From a virus, in IMG/VR virus record IMGVR_UViG_3300046009_004783, positions 1-29,231 of that record: DNA of 29,231 nucleotides. One strand, written 5' to 3'. A program made the translations under genes and the position numbers. Below, piece after piece: positions 13,962-29,231 of this stretch (within the stretch, counting starts at the first letter, position 1; the number at the start of each line of letters is the position of its first letter). The notes beneath the pieces were generated by a model. The model ran no database searches and had not been told where the DNA came from. It saw only the letters and a program-made list of their open reading frames with translations.

Positions 13962-14536
13962 CCACATACACCGTGCTGCCGATCATCATGCCCTCCGATT
14001 TGGCTGGCACCAAAAATGGCGAACTCCCCGCAAGCGTGTTGCGAAACATCAAGGCACCGAATGGTCAACTGCACCGCCTGGCTGCTACCGCCTGGAATGC
14101 CATGCAACTCGCCGCCTACTTTGACGGAATCGAATTGAAACACGTTGGCGCATACCGCCCGTTTGATCAGCAGATCAAACTGTTCCGTGAAAGGTACACA
14201 GGTACACCGACAGGCCGCACGCCGCAAGTGACCCGCAACTATCAAAACACCACCTGGTATCTCAAAAAAGGGATGGCACCAGCGGGCACACCAGGAACCT
14301 CCAATCATGGGTGGGGACTCGCAATCGATGTGGCCTCAGTGACATCAGGCAAACGCCTTGAATGGTTGCTCGGTGACGGATTCGCCACCAGCAACGCCCT
14401 CAAATTCGGCTTTTCATGGGAAGTGAAAGACGGCGCAAACGCTGAGGCATGGCACATTCGCTATGTATGCGGCGACAAACTGCCACAGGCCGTGCTCGAC
14501 GCCATTCAAGCGTTCCCCACACTTGACGTGCGGTGA
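13958..14536 (+). CDS. Endolysin, VanY-type D-Ala-D-Ala carboxypeptidase (M15)
   Basis: A 192-residue peptidase of the M15/VanY group, which cuts peptidoglycan peptides at D-Ala bonds at the end of infection. The zinc site is visible as His117 and Asp124 (SNHGWGLAIDV) and His166 (AEAWHIRYV), with the preceding AYRPFDQQ motif at 65-72. No cell-wall-binding domain or signal peptide is present, so release would depend on a holin. Three small membrane proteins downstream are candidates. The gene begins at an ATGA overlap. Confidence 0.88.
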   Translation: MTTYTVLPIIMPSDLAGTKNGELPASVLRNIKAPNGQLHRLAATAWNAMQLAAYFDGIELKHVGAYRPFDQQIKLFRERYTGTPTGRTPQVTRNYQNTTWYLKKGMAPAGTPGTSNHGWGLAIDVASVTSGKRLEWLLGDGFATSNALKFGFSWEVKDGANAEAWHIRYVCGDKLPQAVLDAIQAFPTLDVR

Positions 14537-15630
14537 CACGAGTCCTGCGCCGAATAGCACGCGCAACATTCGCCGCCGTCATGGTGCTGGCGATATTTGC
14601 GCCAGGTGCACGCGCTCAAGGCGACGCAATAACAGTGACCGCATGGCGTGTCACCGATGGTGCGTTCACTGTTGGCGACCGTGACGATGTGTGTGCATCG
14701 TTCACAGTTCCTGACATCAATTTTGAATATGGCGGCGGCATGGTCGCCGAATGTGACTATGACGGCGTACTGGTCAGGTTCTCTGGTGTGTTCACATTGG
14801 ACCGTGAAACGCTCATGGTGGTGGCCCATGATGACGGTGCTGCATTGTTGTTGAACGGCAACTATGTGATCGACAACTGGAGTGATACGGGTTGCATGTG
14901 GGATTTCGTGTGGCTCGAAGCGGGCACATATCCGTTCGAGTTGTGGTTCTACGAAAACGGCGGTGATGCGTGCATCGGTTTGTTGCAGGCATCACCGAAC
15001 CAGGATGCATATACGCCTCTCACACCTGAGCAGTTCAGCACTATCACCACAACAACTACCGAACCAACAACCACGACCGAACCCACAACAACTACCGAAC
15101 CGACGACCACGACCGAACCGACAACTACCACTGAACCGACGACAACCACTGAGGTGACGACATCGCTACCACTCGAAGCATCTACGACGACGATCCGCAC
15201 AGAATCGCCTACCAGCGCGCCCTCGCCTGGCACCACACTGCCACCCTCATCACCGCCCGCCTTGACCACGACAGCGCCACCGACCATCCCAACCACAACA
15301 ACAGTGGCGTCGACAACATTGCCCACAACGACCACCCCAACAACTAGCATCAACCCTGAAACAACGACGGCAGCAGAAACAACAACAACAACGACAGAAA
15401 ACGAAACAACCACAACGCCGAACGAACTGCCACCACCGCCACCGAACGATGCACCCGAAAACGTGAAAGAGGCATTTGAGGATGCGGTGAACATTTATGG
15501 CGGCGGGTACGACGACTATGTGCCAGCAGGTTCATCGGTCACCGTGGCCCAACGGCGCACCCTGGTTGCTGCGGTTTCTGTTCTGCAATTTGTGCCAGCC
15601 CTACAACCGAAAGCCCGTCGCCGCCCATGA
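14533..15630 (+). CDS. Secreted PA14-like protein with Thr-rich linker
   Basis: A 365-residue protein with a GTG start overlapping the lysin stop. Residues 1-28 look like a signal peptide (basic RRIAR, hydrophobic core, AxA-type end before QGDA). Residues about 30-160 resemble a PA14/GLEYA-type beta domain (VVAHDDGAALLLNGNYVIDN, EAGTYPFELWFYENGG), usually carbohydrate-binding. A long Thr/Pro/Glu linker (about 170-310) with TTTTEP repeats follows, then a conserved C-terminal segment (EAFEDAVNIYGGGYDDYV, TVAQRRTLVAA). It may bind the host envelope or be displayed outside the infected cell. The position next to the lysin suggests envelope work. Confidence 0.75.
   Translation: MTRVLRRIARATFAAVMVLAIFAPGARAQGDAITVTAWRVTDGAFTVGDRDDVCASFTVPDINFEYGGGMVAECDYDGVLVRFSGVFTLDRETLMVVAHDDGAALLLNGNYVIDNWSDTGCMWDFVWLEAGTYPFELWFYENGGDACIGLLQASPNQDAYTPLTPEQFSTITTTTTEPTTTTEPTTTTEPTTTTEPTTTTEPTTTTEVTTSLPLEASTTTIRTESPTSAPSPGTTLPPSSPPALTTTAPPTIPTTTTVASTTLPTTTTPTTSINPETTTAAETTTTTTENETTTTPNELPPPPPNDAPENVKEAFEDAVNIYGGGYDDYVPAGSSVTVAQRRTLVAAVSVLQFVPALQPKARRRP
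15046..15160 (+). repeat. 18-bp coding minisatellite (TTTTEP units)
   Basis: About six copies of an 18-base unit coding Thr-Thr-Thr-Thr-Glu-Pro, with synonymous variation among copies (ACCGAACC, ACTGAACCG). It forms the spacer between the PA14-like domain and the C-terminus of the secreted protein. The variation means the array is not freshly expanded. Confidence 0.8.
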
Positions 15631-22679: not shown

Positions 22680-23017
22680 GCAGCATATGGGATGATCCCG
22701 CAGTGAAACCGTCAAGCGATTTCGTGAAATTTGAAACTGTAGGAGACTCAGTTTCAGGCACGGTACTGGATGTATCCATTCACACATTCGAGGATGGAAA
22801 GCGTGCAGCCAAACTGATCATCAGAACAGCAGAAGGTGATCGCACCCTCACCGCAGGACAAATGCAACTCGGCGCCAAACTCGCCGAAGCACGACCAAAC
22901 GTCGGCGACAAACTCACCATCAATTTCGTTGGTGTAGAAAAGCGCACAGGCGGCAAAACACTCAAGCAGTTCACAGTGGCAGTAGTGCGCGGAACGGGCG
23001 ACGACGACCTCATCTGA
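22676..23017 (+). CDS. OB-type ssDNA-binding-like protein
   Basis: A 113-residue protein coupled to the RecB-like gene by ATGA. Its pattern (KFETVGDSVSGTVLDVSIHT, KLIIRTAEGDRTLTAG, KLTINFVGVEKRTGGKTL, acidic end GDDDLI) suits an OB-fold. Small proteins of this kind follow RecB-like nucleases in many actinophages and are thought to act as ssDNA-binding or recombination partners. The acidic C-terminus is in keeping with SSB-like proteins. Confidence 0.68.
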   Translation: MSSIWDDPAVKPSSDFVKFETVGDSVSGTVLDVSIHTFEDGKRAAKLIIRTAEGDRTLTAGQMQLGAKLAEARPNVGDKLTINFVGVEKRTGGKTLKQFTVAVVRGTGDDDLI

Positions 23018-23033
23018 GATCGTCAAACCTGGC

Positions 23034-23108
23034 GGCCACATCAACTGGTTGAGATATGAGAACCCACCCCTGTTCACATGTTCGGCGGTTCGACACCGCC
23101 TGTGGCCA
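23034..23108 (+). ncRNA. tRNA-like cloverleaf RNA with non-canonical central arm
   Basis: A 75-base structure: a 7-bp acceptor stem (GGCCACA 23034-23040 with TGTGGCC 23101-23107) and unpaired A at 23108; a 4-bp D-like arm (TCAA 23041-23044 with TTGA 23049-23052) with a CTGG loop; a central arm of 5 bp (ATATG 23054-23058 with CATGT 23077-23081), an A-A mismatch, then GAAC/GTTC (23060-23063/23072-23075) closing loop CCACCCCT; and a perfect T-arm (GGCGG/CCGCC) with TTCGACA loop. The acceptor and T-arm are tRNA-grade, but the central arm is too long and its loop lacks T33 and a readable anticodon. CCA is not encoded. It ends two bases before the next gene. Confidence 0.6.
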
Positions 23109-23110
23109 CT

Positions 23111-26570: not shown

Positions 26571-26612
26571 CACAAACAACAAAAACCAGACAACAAAAGA
26601 AACGGCAGCACC

Positions 26613-29231
26613 GTGACCAACCAAACGACAACCCAACCAACCCCCAACACCCTCACCGCCGCCCTCAACCTCGCCCAACATGACCTCCCCGTCATACCAA
26701 TCCGACCCAAACAAAAACACCCACCAATGGCCGCCTGGCAACACGCCGCCACCACCAACCCCGAAACCATCACCAACTGGTACACAGGTCTCTACCGTGG
26801 CCACGGCATCGGTGTCGCAACAGGACACCCACACAAACAACCCGACCGCTACCTGTTCGTCATAGACATCGACGAACACAACCCCGAAACATCAGGCAGC
26901 GACACCCTCCACGAACTATGCCAAACCTACGGGCAACTCCCCACCACCGTTGAAGCACACACAGGCAGCGGCGGGCGACACCTCTACTTCACATCACCCG
27001 AACCCGTACGGAACGACGCAGGGAAAAAACTAGGTGCAGGCATCGACATCCGTGGAGAAGGTGGGCAGGTCCTCGCACCACCAACCTTGCATCCCAATGG
27101 CAACCCGTACACATGGGACACAGAAAACCACCCTGACACCACACCCATTGCCCACGCACCCGACTGGCTCATCGCCCTACTCACACCACCCGCACCTGTA
27201 TCACAACCGATCACAACGAAACACACGCCGAACATCTGGCATCAACTCGGCGACGACGGACCAGCCGCCACCTACAACGAACAAACCACCTGGCAACAAC
27301 TACTCGAAACCGACGGCTGGACCTTGCACCACACCGACACCAACGGTGAACAACACTGGACCAGGCCAGGCAAAACAGTCAGAGAAGGCACCAGCGCCAC
27401 CGTCGGATACAAAAACACTGACGCCCTCAAAGTATTCACATCAGCGATCACATGGCTACCAGAGGGCGCATACTCCCGTTTCGGGTACTACGCCTGCCGC
27501 AACCACAACGGCGACCGATCAGCAGCCGCACGTGAACTACGCCAAACCCAACAACCCGCCACCACCACCACCATCATCGGCGACACCAGCACACCCGACG
27601 AACCGTGGCCCACACCCATCCCACTCCACGACACCAACACACCACCCGAATTCCCACTGCACACACTCCCCGAATGGATACGCAACCAAATCCAACAAAC
27701 CGCCACCGACCTACAAGTAGCACCCGACCTCCCCGCCACCCTCGCACTCGGCGCCCTATCAGTCGCAGCCCTCGGCAAAACACGAGTCACCTACCCACGC
27801 CAACGCTGGACACAACCCCTCAACCTCTACACCGCCGTCGCACTACCACCATCAGCAGGCAAATCACCAGCCAAAAACGCGATGTTTGCACCCCTAGAAA
27901 CACTCGAACAACAACGACTCAAAGACGCCGCCACCACCAAAATGCGTGCAGAAACCGAACGCTCGATCTTAGAAAAAAGACGCAAACAACTTGAGGAAAA
28001 AGCAGCCAAAAACGGTGACGACGCCGCCGCCGCAATGTACGACCTGCACAACCTCAACGACCAACTCGCACAACTGCAACACCCACCCTCAGGTCGCCTC
28101 CTAGCAGACGACGCCACCACCGAAGCCCTCGGTGTCGCACTCGCCGACGCAGGCGGCCACATCGCCGTCGTCAGCGCCGAAGGCGGACTATTCGACCGCA
28201 TCGCAGGAATGTACACAGACGGACCAGCAAACCTAGACCTGTATCTAGAAGGCTGGTCGGGTGGCCGCTACGTCGTGGACAGAATCAAACGAGAACCCAT
28301 CAACATCCCCGCAGCCAATCTGGTCGTCGTCACCACCGTGCAACCCACAGTGCTTGACGCAATCGGCAACAGTAAAAACCTCACAGGCCGTGGACTCGTC
28401 GCCAGGTTCCTACTCTCACAACCCACCAACAACGTCGGCACCCGTGACCGCCTACGCCACACCACAGGCGACGAACACACCACCCGCAACTACGAACTAC
28501 ACCTCACCGAAATCGCCCAACACCTACACAACAACCCCGCCACCACCACCATCACCGACGAAACCAGCGACATGTTCGCCCAATGGGATCAACAACTAGA
28601 AAACCGTGGCGCACCAGGCGCAGACCTAGAACACCTCAACGAATGGACAGGCAAACTGCGCGCCTCAGTCATCCGCATCGCCGCCCTACTCCACCACGCC
28701 AACCACAACCACACCACCACCATAGACACAACCACAATGGCCAACGCCATCCAAATCGGCAACTACTACCTAGAACACGCCAGACACATCGCCGACCGAT
28801 GGGGAACCGACGACAGCATCAAAAACGCCCGCCGCATCCTCGAATGGTTCACCCGACTAGACGACACCACATTCACCGTCAGAGACCTCTACAGCGCCAA
28901 CAGGCGCCTGTTCCCCACCGCCGACGACACACGCCAACCCCTAGAACTCCTCCACGAACGAGGCTGGATCAGACCACTATTCGACGGGCCACTCATCATC
29001 GGGCGACGTGGGAAAGAATCACCACGGTTCGCAATCCACCCTAGTTGCGCGCCATGCGCGCCATGCGCGCACCCAAACCCACAAAACGACACCGACAACA
29101 CTCAACCAGTTGCGCGCCATGCGCGCCATGCGCGCACCCCCCCTAGGGATCAGGAGAGTGCCATGAGTAGCGTGCCTAGACAGGAGATTGAAAACCACAT
29201 ACATACATATAATTCTTTCTCTAACACCCCC
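26613..29231 (+). CDS. Prim-Pol / DUF3987 replication protein (partial, runs off window)
   Basis: An open frame of at least 873 codons with a GTG start at 26613 and no stop before the window ends. Residues 10-190 form a bifunctional primase-polymerase domain with IDIDEHN (Asp85, Asp87) and TGSGGRHLYF (118-127, His123). From about residue 345 a DUF3987-type helicase-like region follows, with Walker A-like PPSAGKSPAKN (Lys417). The C-terminus has a winged-helix-like region, then two repeat-coded linkers (CAPCAPCA and ARHARHART). It would prime and unwind phage DNA. Codons end almost always in C or A. An in-frame ATG at 29163 has GGAGAG upstream, so a second short product is possible. The ribosome site at the GTG is weak. 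Confidence 0.85.
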   Translation, partial: MTNQTTTQPTPNTLTAALNLAQHDLPVIPIRPKQKHPPMAAWQHAATTNPETITNWYTGLYRGHGIGVATGHPHKQPDRYLFVIDIDEHNPETSGSDTLHELCQTYGQLPTTVEAHTGSGGRHLYFTSPEPVRNDAGKKLGAGIDIRGEGGQVLAPPTLHPNGNPYTWDTENHPDTTPIAHAPDWLIALLTPPAPVSQPITTKHTPNIWHQLGDDGPAATYNEQTTWQQLLETDGWTLHHTDTNGEQHWTRPGKTVREGTSATVGYKNTDALKVFTSAITWLPEGAYSRFGYYACRNHNGDRSAAARELRQTQQPATTTTIIGDTSTPDEPWPTPIPLHDTNTPPEFPLHTLPEWIRNQIQQTATDLQVAPDLPATLALGALSVAALGKTRVTYPRQRWTQPLNLYTAVALPPSAGKSPAKNAMFAPLETLEQQRLKDAATTKMRAETERSILEKRRKQLEEKAAKNGDDAAAAMYDLHNLNDQLAQLQHPPSGRLLADDATTEALGVALADAGGHIAVVSAEGGLFDRIAGMYTDGPANLDLYLEGWSGGRYVVDRIKREPINIPAANLVVVTTVQPTVLDAIGNSKNLTGRGLVARFLLSQPTNNVGTRDRLRHTTGDEHTTRNYELHLTEIAQHLHNNPATTTITDETSDMFAQWDQQLENRGAPGADLEHLNEWTGKLRASVIRIAALLHHANHNHTTTIDTTTMANAIQIGNYYLEHARHIADRWGTDDSIKNARRILEWFTRLDDTTFTVRDLYSANRRLFPTADDTRQPLELLHERGWIRPLFDGPLIIGRRGKESPRFAIHPSCAPCAPCAHPNPQNDTDNTQPVARHARHARTPPRDQESAMSSVPRQEIENHIHTYNSFSNTP
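29043..29074 (+). repeat. 32-bp direct repeat, copy A
   Basis: It begins AGTTGCGCGCCATGCGCGCC and recurs exactly at 29108-29139. Each copy contains GCGCGCCAT twice in tandem. Here it is translated as a CAPCAPCAH-type linker in the replication protein. Confidence 0.9.
29108..29139 (+). repeat. 32-bp direct repeat, copy B
   Basis: This is an exact repeat of 29043-29074, displaced by 65 bases and therefore in another reading phase; it is translated as ARHARHART. Conservation at DNA level despite different protein readings suggests a DNA function such as an origin iteron or recombination site, or a recent duplication. Confidence 0.9.

Follow-up and report, generated by a model that had tools for sequence, protein, structure and literature searches.

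A conserved tRNA-like element that is not a tRNA gene lies between two phage genes and may act as a processing signal

The DNA analysed here, hereafter the window, is the whole 29,231-nt stretch (positions 1 to 29,231) of the IMG/VR virus record IMGVR_UViG_3300046009_004783. It contains two WhiB-like genes, which suggests that the host is an actinobacterium. Positions 14533-15630 encode a protein with a long TTTTEPTTTTEP repeat run, adjoining an endolysin-like gene, and two genes of the PAPS-reductase family occur in this one phage (18958-19986 and 25605-26570). A single long open frame (26571-29231), primase/helicase-like by eye with a GPPSAGKS-type motif, runs off the contig end.

The region of interest comprises two genes with a small hairpin and a tRNA-like element at their junction (Table 1). 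The product of the upstream gene belongs to a family with the motif SIWDDP...EKRxGGKTLKxF, conserved at more than 50 viral loci. Its AlphaFold2 model (pLDDT 83) has the topology b-b-b-a-b-b, and the best Foldseek matches were OB folds of SSB and RPA proteins, every one of them weak (E 1e-3 or worse). Homologues of the downstream gene product are 44-52 aa long, with an identical start point throughout the window clade, and codon changes relative to loci L001-L003 are mostly synonymous. No Shine-Dalgarno (SD) sequence was found in the 20 nt 5' of its ATG, in contrast to the next gene, which is preceded by an ordinary AAGGAGG. An in-frame ATG at 23078, inside the element, was considered as the gene start and rejected because it is not kept in L006-L008 and L039. 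The hairpin just 5' of the element had a negative folding z-score in all ten loci tested (-1.5 to -5.1; window -1.5, L001 -5.1, L035 -4.5, L024 -3.3, L006 -2.9). Hairpins with G-rich loops (TAGGGGG or TTGGGGAA) just 5' of the element are common to L024, L033, L047, L055, L059, and L067.

Table 1. Features of the window around the tRNA-like element.
Feature	Position	Strand	Remarks
Upstream gene, 113 aa	22676..23017	+	OB-fold, SSB/RPA-like; AlphaFold2, Foldseek, conservation
Small hairpin GACGA.CTC ATCT GAG.TCGTC	23003..23024	+	spans upstream stop codon, directly 5' of element
tRNA-like element	23034-23108	+	between OB-fold gene stop codon and 52-aa gene ATG
Acceptor stem, 5' strand GGCCACA	23034..23040	+	partner of 23101-23107
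D-like arm TCAA-CTGG-TTGA	23041..23052	+	loop GG; zero linker nucleotides either side
Central (anticodon-like) arm	23053..23082	+	6 bp, A-A mismatch, 4 bp, 8-nt loop
Central-arm loop	23064-23071	+	C-rich
T-arm GGCGG TTCGACA CCGCC	23084..23100	+	5/5 stem pairs
Acceptor stem, 3' strand TGTGGCC	23101..23107	+	partner of 23034-23040
A73-C74	23108..23109	+	only invariant dinucleotide outside the T-arm
Downstream gene, 52 aa	23111..23269	+	ATG two bases past A73, without SD
Next gene, 90 aa	23250..23522	+	ordinary SD (AAGGAGG)

All seven acceptor pairs of the window element are Watson-Crick. The central arm consists of an outer stem, GATATG/CATGTT, whose outermost pair is G-U, and an inner stem, GAAC/GTTC, closed by the loop CCACCCCT, which lacks T33 and offers no usable anticodon. 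A73 is followed by CT and then by the ATG. The folding energy of the element is -30.3 kcal/mol (z = -2.9), and only one of 200 shuffles was equally stable. A descriptor combining a 7-bp acceptor stem with a 5-bp T-arm and TTCRA loop matched the window once, against 0.12 matches expected from dinucleotide shuffles, and gave one match, at the same site, in each relative satisfying it. A preliminary description of the DNA had already drawn this cloverleaf, with its perfect acceptor and T-arms, small D-like arm, mismatched central arm, C-rich loop without T33, and termination two bases before an ATG with no clear ribosome site. All of this holds, and the central arm gains its outer G-U pair.

The element is a real structure but not a tRNA gene. 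ARAGORN detected no tRNA at the site in the window or in its relatives, and Rfam searches returned no tRNA match for the window, even at permissive E-values, or for the relatives, and no tmRNA match for the element. The Rfam matches to the window, namely atoC (17914), Plastid-ycf2, and mir-1266, were all below threshold, the ycf2 match lying antisense to the tRNA-like fold. Beyond the 7-bp acceptor and the 5-bp T-arm with TTCRA, the attributes of a canonical tRNA are missing, including a 5-bp stem that bears a 7-nt loop with U33 and a readable anticodon, recognition by the tRNA models of ARAGORN and Rfam, and the junction linkers: positions 8-9, position 26, and a variable loop of at least 4 nt are represented in the window fold by 0, 0, and 1 nt. 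Nevertheless, the 28 nt at the 3' end of the window element (23082-23109) show 25/28 identity to actinobacterial tRNA-Phe, a likeness reaching E<=0.001 in 3 of 296 actinobacterial genomes, and a tRNA-Phe-like ancestry of this 3' half is possible. L235, L238, and L240 were listed with the same segment for tRNA-Phe likeness, and L234 carries a partial tRNA-Phe copy resembling an att site.

Searches with the 113-aa protein yielded eight related loci, its profiles yielded more, and the 52-aa protein gave others. Among them, about 36 other phage contigs were found to carry a tRNA-like element at the syntenic site, 6-51 nt past the stop codon of the upstream gene, representing 26 distinct elements. 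These fall into the window clade (L001-L008, L035-L039), a clade comprising L024, L033, L047, L055, L059, and L067, the L052 group, and the singletons L063 and L282; in these last two, a prim-pol-like gene lies directly 3' of the element. A canonical tRNA is absent from this site in every relative. DNA and protein searches of isolated phages detected no relatives. Pattern scans showed the window-type element in this phage group alone, and general matches to a T-arm followed by an ATG were mostly canonical tRNAs. The upstream-protein tree places the element in at least three lineages; the count of five changes is only approximate since L032 was wrongly marked as element-less and L063 was unlabelled. 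Relatives devoid of the element have a strong hairpin at the same place, which in some cases (L284-L320) carries a U-run as in an intrinsic terminator. In L023 (3340-3450), inside the window clade, the element is replaced by one 15-bp hairpin. The loop of this hairpin, CCCCTTCC, complements the SD of its downstream gene, GGAAGGGG.

The connection between the element and the downstream gene varies. The ATG lies 1-3 nt past A73 in L062, L282, and the window clade (2-3 nt in the last), nearly always without an SD; the genes of L062 and L282, which are unrelated, begin one base past A73, as A-C-ATG. The acceptor 3' strand itself carries AAGG/GGAGG near the ATG in L035-L039. In L024, L033, L047, L055, and L059, an ordinary SD-bearing leader comes between the element and the gene, and L059-L061, siblings of L062, have both leader and SD. 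More generally, an SD leader is present in relatives with a more distant next gene. Other contigs (L214, L226, L223, L210, L179, and L219) harbour canonical tRNA genes with the ATG of a long ORF within a few nt of A73, such as a tRNA-Val before a GDP-mannose-dehydratase-like gene and a tRNA-Leu before a peptidyl-tRNA-hydrolase-like gene. Judging from this gene order, punctuation by true tRNAs is possible in those contigs.

MAFFT placed the acceptor and central arms wrongly when given whole elements, so covariation was scored instead on 23 elements aligned by hand and on acceptor/T pieces of 15 distinct elements with a 7-bp acceptor. In the hand alignment, paired cells amounted to 98.1% for the acceptor, 100% for the T-stem, and 97.8% for the closing 6 bp of the central arm, as compared with 47%, 52%, and 38%, respectively, when partners were swapped between clusters. 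In the acceptor/T pieces, 98.9% of cells were paired versus 57.4% in shuffles and 39-45% in slid controls, double changes were seen at 11 of 12 pairs, and the covariation score was 1.03 versus 0.24 for shuffles. These changes are well illustrated by L059, L060, and L062, whose central stems read GGGTCG/CGACTT, GAGATG/CATCTC, and GAGATG/CGTCTT, with T-stems ACAGG/CCTGT and ATAGG/CCTAT. The same shape thus recurs at the same place with different letters, which marks the element as real; conserved and covarying in relatives, it is beyond chance, and its tRNA-like fold is under selection. Covariation of the central arm, for which the preliminary description had asked, is thus present.

Within this fold, some parts are constant and others are free. 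The dinucleotide A73-C74 was found in 23/23 hand-aligned elements and also in L063, L282, and L054 (26/26), while position 75 is free; L004 and L006-L008 carry CC, then the A of the ATG. The T-loop is TTCRA in most elements and atypical in some relatives (TGCAA, AGCAT). A GG in the D region accompanies 9 of 10 TTCRA T-loops and 1 of 5 others (Fisher p 0.017), an association that depends on how we partitioned the D region. The acceptor has 6 bp in some relatives, giving an acceptor/T stack of 11 bp instead of the 12 bp of the window. The central arm has between 4 and about 10 bp and a loop of 4-20 nt, certain relatives lack the D-stem, and no fixed identity is kept in the acceptor sequence, a freedom that argues against decoding or charging by one synthetase. 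Pairing in cis between loop and SD was considered and discarded, being no better than with shuffled loops at 21 loci, with the exception of the L023 hairpin (p about 0.05, uncorrected); an anti-SD role proposed from L033, L047, and L059 (CCTTTC versus GAAAGG) failed the same comparison.

The constant acceptor/T stack and A73-C74 match the determinants of RNase P. An acceptor plus T-arm hairpin alone is cleaved by this enzyme and is a good substrate, the 12-bp acceptor/T stack serves as a ruler for the cut site, and base pairs form between R73-C74-C75 of the substrate and GGU in RNase P RNA (PMC11143913). The element offers the stack, the discriminator purine, and C74. RNase Z, on the other hand, is suppressed by cytidines just past the discriminator (PMC7479834), and its substrates should have none right after it, whereas C74 is present in all elements.

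From the parts of this observed, syntenic, and covarying fold that stay constant, we infer that the element serves as an intercistronic tRNA-mimic processing signal ("tRNA punctuation") in a polycistronic phage transcript, with a probability of roughly one half. Among the four explanations offered in the preliminary description, namely a tRNA mimic handled by tRNA enzymes, a translational control element, a degenerate tRNA, and an attachment-site relic, this mimicry is the best supported. Transcription of the OB-fold gene would read through the element, which would adopt a tRNA-like elbow through contact of the TTCRA T-loop with the D-loop GG. Host RNase P would then cut at 23033/23034, with the acceptor/T stack as the ruler and A73-C74 as part of the RCCA contact, freeing an upstream mRNA with a protective 3' hairpin and giving the downstream mRNA a defined 5' end. 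In the least certain step, RNase Z or an equivalent would cut past A73 and leave a near-leaderless downstream mRNA; otherwise, the tRNA-like fold would stay as the structured 5' end of that mRNA. The window clade, L062, and L282, with their abutting and mostly SD-less ATG, would fit such a further cut. In Mycobacterium tuberculosis, a quarter of genes are leaderless, and leaderless mRNAs are common in Actinobacteria (PMC3898074). Yet, given the suppression of RNase Z, the invariant C74, extended to CC in L004 and L006-L008, suggests that the 3' cut may be poor, and the 5' cut by RNase P is the firmer proposal. In L035-L039, with their SD-like acceptor 3' strand, translation might not need processing. 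The processing reading is favoured by the hairpin 5' of the element in ten loci and by the hairpin or terminator occupying the site in element-less relatives. Against it stand the 6-bp acceptor or atypical T-loop of some relatives and the sub-threshold Rfam score of the mascRNA match described below; a stable trans-acting small RNA, moreover, would give much the same conservation.

This small RNA is the main rival, although an unlikely one. The excised, stable tRNA mimic might titrate or decoy RNase P, the CCA enzyme, tRNA-modifying enzymes, or a tRNA-cleaving defence, or might pair with targets through its C-rich loop, the gene junction being merely its parking place. Clean tRNA-like ends with a conserved A73 would suit such a molecule, as would the C-rich loops found across the window clade (CCACCCC, CTCCCCC, TCCCCC) and the SD-complementary hairpin loop of the fold-less L023. 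However, neither sequence nor length of the loop is conserved between clades, complementarity of loop and flank is no better than with shuffled loops, and the recurrence of the same gene pair in the window clade together with an abutting start codon would have to be a coincidence. It is rather improbable that the fold acts without any cutting, replacing the SD beside the AUG and recruiting or gating the ribosome, perhaps via a bound tRNA-binding protein or the upstream OB-fold product. The OB fold encoded upstream would agree with this, as would the window clade, L062, and L282, whose ATG mostly lacks an SD and lies 1-3 nt past the fold. The five relatives in which a leader and SD follow the element do not, and indicate that its presence is independent of the initiation codon; moreover, a stable acceptor stem beside the AUG normally hampers ribosome binding. 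Translational control, as first proposed, thus survives as a competing explanation or as a consequence of processing.

The two remaining explanations fare worse. A terminator or mRNA 3' stabiliser resembling a tRNA by accident is very unlikely: element-less relatives do carry a hairpin or an intrinsic terminator in the corresponding position, but a separate hairpin already precedes the element, no U-run comes after it, a gene begins 2 nt later, and neither the T-loop nor A73-C74 would be needed. Least credible of all is a decayed tRNA gene or attachment-site relic, functionless today. The tRNA-Phe likeness of the 3' end speaks for decay, whereas compensatory changes keep three stems across about 15 widely divergent clusters and the relatives have no canonical tRNA at the site, so that the degenerate tRNA of the preliminary description is rejected. 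An attachment site within a tRNA would call for near-identity to the 3' half of the host tRNA and a nearby integrase; relatives differ in their acceptor and T-stem sequences, and the ORFs scanned included no integrase, leaving this function unsupported.

The element is real and conserved and was not found in the libraries searched; it defines a family of structured RNAs in uncultured phages of actinobacterial type, for which no Rfam 15 entry reaches threshold. Being neither a tRNA nor a gene, it is missed by annotation pipelines. If the processing reading is true, the phage borrows the enzymes of tRNA maturation to split its messenger and needs neither terminators nor new promoters for this, and processing provides one route for expressing SD-less genes directly behind a fold. 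The occurrence of an ATG directly behind true tRNAs in other phage contigs implies that the question may be general.

Several known systems resemble this arrangement. In mitochondrial tRNA punctuation, real decoding tRNAs lie between genes and are cut out to leave mRNAs with little or no leader. The phage element is likewise a tRNA-shaped RNA between genes, but it cannot decode. The tRNA-like domain of tmRNA and the 3' tRNA-like structures of plant viruses also combine an acceptor and T-arm with a reduced D-arm and no anticodon; by contrast, the phage element lacks an mRNA-like tag domain and a constant acceptor identity, and is internal rather than 3'-terminal. Phage and mRNA substrates of bacterial RNase P include phage M3 RNA, the C4 antisense RNA of P1/P7, T4 gene 32 mRNA, and polycistronic operons (PMC11143913). 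T4 gene 32 mRNA offers a parallel as an RNase P substrate that also involves an SSB gene, but none of the substrates in that paper is described there as a covarying full cloverleaf between two cistrons with an abutting ATG. The mascRNA/menRNA family (Rfam RF01684; tRNA mimics of MALAT1 and MEN-beta) is characterized by a small D-arm, a long central arm, junctions free of linkers, two guanines in the D-loop, and release by RNase P from a longer RNA (PMC11693755). The phage element shares the small D-arm, the long anticodon-equivalent arm, the missing linkers, and the D-loop GG and T-loop of the elbow, and it would also lie inside a longer transcript, where it would define the 3' end of the preceding RNA. 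The window element itself had no Rfam mascRNA-menRNA match; for the L047-type element, this family ranked first, with 30.8 bits (E 0.026 over 54 kb), below the gathering score of 42.5 bits. mascRNA and menRNA differ in deriving from eukaryotic nuclear lncRNAs of unrelated sequence and place, whereas the phage element adjoins a coding gene, and their processing by RNase P, RNase Z, and CCA addition is experimental, whereas that of the phage element is deduced. We take the likeness as one of working alike, not of family membership. We tentatively propose, as a broader possibility that is more doubtful than the processing signal itself, that non-decoding tRNA mimics serve several phage lineages as cut signals between cistrons. 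At these signals RNase P, perhaps with RNase Z, would split one transcript into a 3'-protected upstream mRNA and a downstream mRNA that is nearly leaderless, in a prokaryotic parallel to both MALAT1-mascRNA processing and mitochondrial punctuation.
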